A stretch of DNA of 64,000 nucleotides, taken from contig NZ_CP048387.1 of NCBI RefSeq assembly GCF_010365785.1, positions 248,001 through 312,000 of the forward strand, written 5' to 3'. This document shows positions 111 to 6,660 of this stretch, piece after piece. The translations under genes and the position numbers were made by a program. The stretch's first letter is position 1, and the number at the start of each line of letters is the position of its first letter. Below the pieces are notes generated by a model that saw nothing but the letters and a program-made list of their open reading frames with translations, ran no database searches and had not been told where the DNA came from. Source of the DNA: Spiroplasma sp. TIUS-1. GTDB lineage: Bacteria > Bacillota_I > Bacilli_A > Mycoplasmatales > Mycoplasmataceae.

Positions 111-140
111 TTGTCTCGTTTTTTATGTTGTTTTTATAAT
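111..140 (+). promoter_or_regulatory. Promoter of the cysteine-rich microgene
   Basis: A TTGTCT -35 element (111-116) and a perfect TATAAT -10 element (135-140) are separated by 18 bases. An AAGGAG ribosome binding site follows at 174-179. The spacing predicts a leader of about 45 bases. No metal-regulator operator is obvious by eye. Confidence 0.65.
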
Positions 141-191
141 AGCACAATATATAATTAAAGAGTACGAAAGTACAAGGAGATTTATAAAAAA

Positions 192-278
192 ATGATTAGA
201 TCAAATTCAAAATGCAAGTGTGAAAATTGCACATGCACTAACTGCACATGTGCAGCACCACAAGAGGGATGTTGTTAG
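192..278 (+). CDS. Metallothionein-like 28-residue cysteine-rich peptide
   Basis: This tiny gene encodes 28 residues, eight of them cysteine (positions 8, 10, 13, 15, 18, 20, 27, 28). The core has the pattern C-x-C-x2-C-x-C-x2-C-x-C and the chain ends in a CC pair. There are no aromatic residues, and Lys/Asn/Thr fill the gaps. Dense C-x-C spacing is the hallmark of metallothioneins, which bind Zn, Cu or Cd through thiolate clusters; function here is inferred from composition only. The gene has its own -35/-10 promoter, an AAGGAG site 12 bases before the ATG and a hairpin terminator directly after, so it looks like a genuine monocistronic unit. It could alternatively be a redox or metal-sensing peptide. 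Confidence 0.7.
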   Translation: MIRSNSKCKCENCTCTNCTCAAPQEGCC

Positions 279-300
279 TCACTAACAGTTAGATTAAAAA

Positions 301-332
301 AATAAAACTTGCTTAATTGCAAGTTTTATTTT
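301..332. terminator. Bidirectional Rho-independent terminator
   Basis: A 12-base inverted repeat (301-312 with 319-330) around a 6-base loop, with A-rich and T-rich flanks, sits between the convergent microgene and the reverse-strand gene ending at 342. It can serve both. Confidence 0.85.
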
Positions 333-5568: not shown

Positions 5569-6660
5569 ATGGAATCCAAATCGAATACAGAAAAAACAGA
5601 TATATTTAACTTAAGTAAAGGTGAAGTATTTGATGGTAGATATGTTATTGTAAAAAAAATTGGATCTGGTGGATTTGGATCAGTTTATGAAGTTTTTGAT
5701 AATATTAATAAACAAACTTTAGCTATAAAGTTTGTTAAATCTGATGAATCTAGAGCTGATCTTGCAATTGAAAGATTTCTAGTCGAAAAAGAATCATTTG
5801 CAAACCTATCTATCAATCCATATGTAATTAAGCTTTATGATGTTTTTCAAGAAGATAAAACATGAGCAATAGTAACTGAAATTGTAAGTGGTGGATCACT
5901 ATCAGAATTTAACAAAAGATTTTTTTATATGAACCAAGATGAAATTAAATTATTTTATACTCGTGTATGTTCTGCATTATCAGATGCTCATAAATTAAAC
6001 ATAATTCATCGTGATATCAAAGAAGGAAATATTATGTTAACTAAATTTGGTTCACCCAAGTTAGGTGACTTTGGTATTTCTTACACTGAGCATAGTACAG
6101 ATCTTACAAAAGATGTAAAAGTAGGAACACCAACTCATTTAGATCCCCAATACTTTAAATGAGGAGCAATTTCTAAACAAGGTGACGTTTATCAATTAGG
6201 AATATGTCTATATACATCTGCAGTTGGTGAACCACCATTTTGAATTCACAATTCAAAATGACAGGGTTCTAAAAAAGCTACATGATATAAATTAAATCAA
6301 TGCAGGGTTAATCCAGTGAGACCATCACTAATTAACCCAAATGTATCTATTGAATTAGAAAACATAATTCTAAAAGCTTTAGATAAAAACCTATCAAGAC
6401 GATATAAAAACATGGATGATATGCAAAATGATATTCAAAATCTTGGCACAAATCCAAACGCAAAACCATTTAAATCATCAACAAGATGAGATAAGTCTGA
6501 GTTTTTTGCGGAGATGAAATCTTATAAAAAGGAAAGGAATATTATAGAGGTTGGTGTTGTAAATAGTTCAAGTATGAAATCCAGTTTTGTTTTTTCACTA
6601 TTGGCTATATTTTTAGTAACAATATTAACGTTCATAATAATGGTAATGATATATGTATAG
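5569..6660 (+). CDS. prkC: Membrane-anchored Ser/Thr protein kinase (PrkC-like, no PASTA domain)
   Basis: The 363-residue protein has a complete Hanks-type kinase core: glycine loop GSGGFG (32-37), catalytic Lys54 in AIK, HRDIKEGN with Asp149, and DFG at 167-169. Seven in-frame TGA codons encode Trp. One hydrophobic segment forms the extreme C-terminus (about 336-363) and essentially nothing follows it. Firmicute PrkC proteins carry extracellular PASTA repeats that bind peptidoglycan; these are absent, as fits a wall-less cell. The stop overlaps the rsgA start by 8 bases, implying translational coupling with rsgA, itself a kinase substrate in other Firmicutes. Confidence 0.93.

Follow-up and report, generated by a model that had tools for sequence, protein, structure and literature searches.

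The window, as we call the whole 64-kb stretch of DNA analysed here, carries a gene of only 28 codons that probably encodes a micro-metallothionein, a cysteine-rich peptide that would buffer soft metals and whose relatives would be metal-inducible. It had been proposed earlier that this is a real, metallothionein-like gene, and in favour of that proposal stand the same kind of cysteine lattice in micro-ORFs of 25 genomes, purifying selection on the Mesoplasma copies, and the ArsR/SmtB repressors and SmtB-type operators that accompany the relatives; on the other side, the window gene itself has no such regulator and the only congener examined is without the gene.

The window microgene and its surroundings

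The micro-ORF (table 1) specifies 28 amino acids, eight of them cysteines in the order C-x-C-x2-C-x-C-x2-C-x-C followed by a terminal CC; it stops at a TAG and has no internal TGA codon. Within the six frames of the window the motif C-x-C-x2-C-x-C occurs solely in this ORF, the cysteine pattern has a single match in the whole surrounding genome of 811,521 bases, where the window spans C1:248001–312000, and the motif is absent from all 30 random 64-kb sequences generated with a second-order Markov model. The first-pass annotation had described a 28-residue ORF with eight cysteines in C-x-C and C-x2-C spacing, which our reading confirms, and had judged a chance ORF very unlikely, a judgement borne out by the random sequences, the ribosome binding site, the strong terminator and the ORFs of the same kind in 24 other genomes. 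It had also credited the gene with a promoter, ribosome binding site and terminator of its own. The last two stand; the promoter-like site may function as such, but it is a match at the level of chance (nine such sites in positions 1–1300 of the window against 9.0 expected from shuffles). The terminator hairpin has a z-score of −6.0, with none of 200 shuffles folding equally well, and could be shared by the microgene and the 52-aa gene that converges on it. The fold of positions 146–200, which takes in the leader hairpin, has −3.9 kcal/mol and a z-score of −2.4 (5 of 200 shuffles are equally good), and an Rfam search gave two matches, both far under their gathering scores. Small hairpins or palindromes directly 5' of the ribosome binding site can also be seen by eye in Mesoplasma (AAGGAATAATTCCTT) and in genus g11 (AGATAACTATCT); folding was applied to the window copy only.

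Table 1. Features of the microgene locus (window coordinates)
Feature	Position	Strand	Basis
Promoter-like site TTGTCT-18 nt-TATAAT	111–140 (TTGTCT 111–116, TATAAT 135–140)	+	Consensus scan, 10/12 matches
Leader hairpin GTAC-GAAA-GTAC, immediately 5' of the ribosome binding site	162–173	+	RNA fold
Ribosome binding site AAGGAG, 12 nt 5' of the ATG	174–179	+	Sequence reading
Micro-ORF MIRSNSKCKCENCTCTNCTCAAPQEGCC, 8 Cys, micro-metallothionein-like	192–278	+	Cys lattice; 24 further genomes of the order have related micro-ORFs
Terminator hairpin, palindromic 14-bp stem	299–332	. (scan listed −)	Hairpin scan and fold
52-aa Cys/His protein MAEKSYDYQCFKC...CARHKK	342–500	−	ORF reading

Judged by eye, what we take to be an RNase J gene diverges from the microgene, and the gene for the 52-aa Cys/His protein converges on it; beyond the 52-aa gene presumably lie def, rsmD and gmk. 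In G001, the sole other genome of the genus examined, the order RNase J, def, rsmD, gmk is kept; the RNase J–def interval there is about 125 bp long and holds no cysteine-rich ORF, and a profile search of the G001 genome found none either. The microgene has been gained in the genome of the window (G000) or lost in G001. The 52-aa protein has matches in 30 of 60 genomes of the family and no family model above cut-off. A functional tie between it and the microgene is not supported, since the two genes are tens of kilobases or more apart in the g11 carriers listed and in G001 the 52-aa gene lies on the opposite side of the RNase J gene.

Relatives across the order

Pattern, profile and context together place cysteine-lattice micro-ORFs of 21–38 residues in 25 genomes from seven genera of the order. 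A pattern of six cysteine codons matched in 26 of 99 related genomes, and on reading 17 of these (G000 included) were found to have a true micro-ORF; the matches in the other nine (G096, G066, G072, G095, G031 at that place, G040, G048, G061 and G026) were dropped for stops within or just 5' of them, low complexity, lack of a fitting start, or being the tail of a long protein. With profile A1, built on 12 rows, 20 of 320 genomes from the order matched at E≤0.01, and the micro-ORFs of G005, G034, G037, G020 and G085, which it missed, were found via pattern or context. Class-wide, profile A4 matched at least 11 of 395 genomes, a lower bound because it missed most of the Mesoplasma copies in the sample; one of its matches lies outside the order (G487, MSSQKCNCQNCSCQNCKCNNKK). 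A ribosome binding site is visible by eye for most of the relatives, not clearly so in G077. The lattice varies, with two CxCx2CxC blocks in the Mesoplasma copies and CxCxCxCx2CxC in G020, and across genera only Met1 and the six core cysteines are invariant, so common descent between the genera is not separable from convergence. The cysteine pattern, on whose conservation among close relatives the first-pass annotation had staked its proposal, is absent from G001 and present in several genera.

Two further arrangements were noticed. In G085 (L046, near 5750–5930) another, similar cysteine-rich ORF begins shortly after the micro-ORF MLFKNECDCQCETTNKCTCDKCECENCSCAC. In G026 (L045) a membrane-like ORF of 283 aa that ends near 6203 has a C-terminal tail, QCQCLNCACQHCAC, with the same cysteine lattice, apparently fused to it.

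The Mesoplasma peptide is under purifying selection: the six 36-aa copies (a sample that leaves out the 37-aa copy of G015) have a pooled pN/pS of 0.11 over 15 pairs, and all 11 of their cysteine columns are invariant, with TGT/TGC changes in eight of those. Purifying selection is less clear in g11, where six of the ten copies were usable by virtue of equal length and pN/pS, calculated over few sites, is 0.56 for four 22-aa copies and 0.33 for two 23-aa copies.

Regulators and predicted operators of the relatives

The microgene is present in 10 of the 20 genomes of g11, in each of which it is convergent with an ArsR gene of 105–107 codons (for one, an earlier predicted start gives 114). A profile made from seven of those ten proteins identifies exactly the same ten genomes within g11, and outside it only G009, G020 and G026 (in 60 family genomes at E≤1e-5 and, across the order, in 320 at E≤1e-15). 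One of the ten proteins was scored, that of G024; it exceeds the cut-offs of the NCBIfam metalloregulator model NF033788 (65.3 against 55 bits) and of HTH_5 (44.5 against 22), and the solved structure closest to it in sequence is the arsenic-responsive ArsR 6j0e (E 7.9e-13). The cysteine clusters CxCxCxxC and CxxC are invariant in the seven aligned g11 proteins.

At the promoter of the g11 microgene there is a 14-2-14 inverted repeat in all ten carriers, perfect in seven. Its two palindromes TATCTATATAGATA, 16 bp apart, are both exact in seven of the ten, and in the other three one is exact and one has a mismatch. No further exact copy of the palindrome was found in the ten carriers or in 13 other genomes searched (23 in total), and the 140 bp upstream of arsR itself have no such site save one with two mismatches in G045. 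SmtB/ArsR operators are described, in an excerpt of PMC8790569, as 12-2-12 inverted repeats with a 2-bp gap, and the g11 pair shares that topology and is a predicted operator. In a second genus, represented by G020, arsR and MCNCNCKCNDCTCASNGTSCK form an operon with a one-mismatch core site in front. G026 has a one-mismatch site in front of arsR (L261, 4498–4851, minus strand), directly after which comes an 8-residue ORF, MCPDCGCC, with a ribosome binding site. In a third genus (G009, L259:4003–6525) two sites with two mismatches each are followed by an operon of a heavy-metal ATPase (TIGR01525, 467.6 bits) and then arsR. The number of sites with up to three mismatches expected from mononucleotide shuffles is 0.05–0.19 in the G020, G026 and G009 regions. 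The N-terminus of the G009 ATPase is histidine-rich, with HNHSE repeats. The arsR-microgene pair of G054 has other neighbours than those of the nine other g11 carriers, and G054 falls outside their supported clade, as is consistent with the two genes having been transferred together.

In all seven Mesoplasma genomes the microgene is instead divergent from a gene for a cysteine-bearing protein (L252–L257 and L034; 103–109 aa in the five read fully), and the intergenic region between the two contains direct repeats of TATATACATATTT or close variants. Two of these proteins were scanned and have no Pfam match, and a profile of the protein against the PDB returned mainly designed proteins and nothing convincing. 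By eye the first half of the protein looks like a ribbon-helix-helix, and we consider it a candidate for a new metal sensor. Profile searches of G000 found neither an ArsR of the g11 type nor a regulator of the Mesoplasma type, and the operator site is absent at the window microgene. With ArsR in g11, the cysteine-bearing protein in Mesoplasma and neither in G000, the regulator therefore differs by genus.

Distribution of heavy-metal efflux ATPases

A heavy-metal ATPase that passes the TIGR01525 cut-off is encoded by 20 of the 60 family genomes, by none of the 19 microgene carriers and by 20 of the 41 others (Fisher p 7.7e-5, with G026 and its 8-residue ORF placed among the non-carriers). Weaker matches to the model occur in all 60 genomes and were taken as P-type ATPases of other kinds; fragments below the cut-off are present in G044 and G046. 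Within g11 the figures are none of ten carriers and seven of ten non-carriers (p 0.003). A Pgi tree covers 30 of the 60 genomes, two of the seven Mesoplasma among them. On it the microgene label needs four changes against a shuffled mean of 10.2, with none of 500 shuffles as low, and the ATPase label needs six; when the two labels are compared on this tree, only three independent pairs lie on supported branches (sign test p 0.25–1). Because its statistical force is lost on the tree, the mutual exclusion of microgene and ATPase is suggestive only.

Comparison with known metallothioneins

With its eight cysteines in 28 residues, the window peptide fits the description of a metallothionein as a short, cysteine-rich protein with CxC and CxxC motifs, yet it matches no Pfam family at E≤10 and no NCBIfam model. 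The only Pfam match of a Mesoplasma relative is to Metallothio_Euk, at E 0.51 and with 10.8 bits, where the cut-off is 22. SmtA is roughly double the length of these 21–38-residue peptides, and the window peptide also differs from it in having no Pfam match (to the Pfam prokaryotic metallothionein family, among others) and no histidine. Histidine is present in the g25 relatives and, according to an excerpt of PMC10612145, is common in bacterial metallothioneins. Like SmtA/SmtB of Synechococcus and NmtA/AzuR of Anabaena, the g11 and G020 relatives combine a small cysteine-rich protein with an adjacent ArsR/SmtB-family gene, and at the promoter they have an inverted repeat whose halves are 2 bp apart, as described for SmtB/ArsR operators (PMC8790569, in excerpt). 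They differ from SmtA/SmtB in that their repressor gene is convergent or in the same operon, and in the genome of the window none was found. A literature search whose scope left out most subscription journals found no report of a metallothionein gene in Mollicutes, Mycoplasma or Spiroplasma, and one on ArsR in Mollicutes gave no report of such a microgene. MymT, the mycobacterial copper metallothionein, is likewise a small, cysteine-rich bacterial protein, but it is longer and has another cysteine spacing, and the window peptide has no NCBIfam or Pfam match. Closer in length and CxC density are the short fungal copper metallothioneins of the Neurospora type; these are eukaryotic, however, no family model matched, and a literature search on them gave nothing to compare.

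Look-alikes in viral contigs

Contigs were scanned with a pattern that joins a ribosome binding site to cysteine codons. Among the matches listed from IMG/VR viral contigs (L297–L416), 71 of 120 loci hold a cysteine-lattice ORF of at most 60 aa led by a ribosome binding site, against 5 of 120 among those listed for a control with threonine codons in the same pattern. These 71 ORFs represent, among the matches listed, 62 distinct peptides, a few of them of low complexity. In genome contigs 11 of 116 loci among the matches listed have an in-frame ORF of that size with a ribosome binding site, some of them evidently low-complexity frames. The viral ORFs have the spacing of the window ORF, a similar length and likewise a ribosome binding site, and 12 of the 71 among the matches listed contain its octapeptide CKCENCTC. 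The earlier statement that such peptides are few is not upheld: other phyla also have look-alikes, and in viral contigs they are frequent. Of the nine peptides tried, none had a PHROG match at E≤1, and one of five viral peptides matched a Pfam pentapeptide-repeat model below cut-off; tblastn against plasmid and phage records gave no match, in a search weakened by the low-complexity filter. No report of viral metallothioneins was found in a literature search. The viral ORFs are possibly a widespread viral micro-metallothionein.

Proposed function and alternatives

We propose that the microgene is expressed as a stand-alone cistron, giving a cytosolic peptide whose eight thiolates, in a CxC-x2-CxC-x2-CxC lattice, would hold ions of soft metals (Zn, Cd, Cu(I) and perhaps As(III)) in a small cluster, thereby buffering metal that is in excess. 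For the relatives linked to ArsR, the predicted course of events is that metal binds the cysteines of the repressor, the promoter-overlapping operator becomes free, and more peptide is made to sequester the metal. We infer metal binding, the release of the repressor by metal, the cytosolic site and the identity of the metals. The window copy may work like its relatives; since neither type of regulator was found in its genome, its induction by metal would be by analogy only.

The cysteines might, alternatively, store reducing equivalents or cysteine and not metal, the peptide acting as a thiol reserve or redox buffer. Its high cysteine content would suit such a role, as would a lipoprotein-like ORF just past arsR in g11 with weak, sub-cut-off similarity to thioredoxin, but the adjoining repressor belongs to a metalloregulator family, the same operator core stands at the heavy-metal ATPase of G009, and CxC spacing is typical of metal-thiolate clusters; we regard a thiol store as unlikely. 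We give rather little credence to the idea that the window ORF is of a viral type, arrived by transfer, with a role in the virus and only a passenger here. The frequency of such ORFs at the viral loci listed, the shared octapeptide and the missing locus at the same syntenic place in G001 argue for it; against it, no phage gene was recognised adjacent, the neighbours are by eye housekeeping genes, tblastn against phage records was empty even if the filter weakens that result, and the octapeptide may be convergent. Such an ancestry is a matter of origin and would not conflict with metal binding.

Two other readings are very improbable. A short cysteine-rich ORF followed by a terminator could be a leader peptide whose cysteine codons govern attenuation of a downstream gene, the hairpin being the attenuator, and the next gene is indeed on the same strand in G020 and three g25 genomes; it is, however, convergent in the window, in all ten g11 carriers and at five Mesoplasma loci (L034, L223, L224, L226 and L227), and for the window ORF we reject a leader peptide on this gene order. 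The extreme shortness of the ORF, its absence from the closest genome examined (G001) and the chance-level promoter match would be expected of a frame open by accident, which we reject on the Markov sequences, and which the ribosome binding site, the strong terminator and the counterparts in other genomes also speak against. A micro-metallothionein is the reading that we prefer.

Implications

These results suggest an unannotated kind of tiny, metal-binding-like protein that may be among the smallest metal-buffering devices. To our knowledge, wall-less bacteria have few known metal-response genes, and a metal buffer of 21–38 residues with a dedicated repressor and a single-site operator would rank among the smallest complete systems for responding to metal. 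Microgenes of this size are concealed by the length cut-offs applied to ORFs. One of the genus in which the peptide is under selection, Mesoplasma florum L1, is described as a near-minimal organism that lacks pathogenic potential (PMC7745072, in excerpt). The frequent viral look-alikes hint at a viral trait that may be common yet has gone unrecognised, the capture of metals or thiols by tiny peptides. We put forward, tentatively and as the less probable side of the question, the wider idea that micro-metallothioneins of about 20–40 residues form a large unannotated class common to wall-less bacteria and the viruses of microbes, and that in Mollicutes they take the place of heavy-metal efflux ATPases within a single ArsR-operator system, with the regulator exchanged from genus to genus. 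If that reading is true, sequestration would supplant efflux in these bacteria, under the control of ArsR, of the cysteine-bearing protein in Mesoplasma and of something else in the genome of the window.
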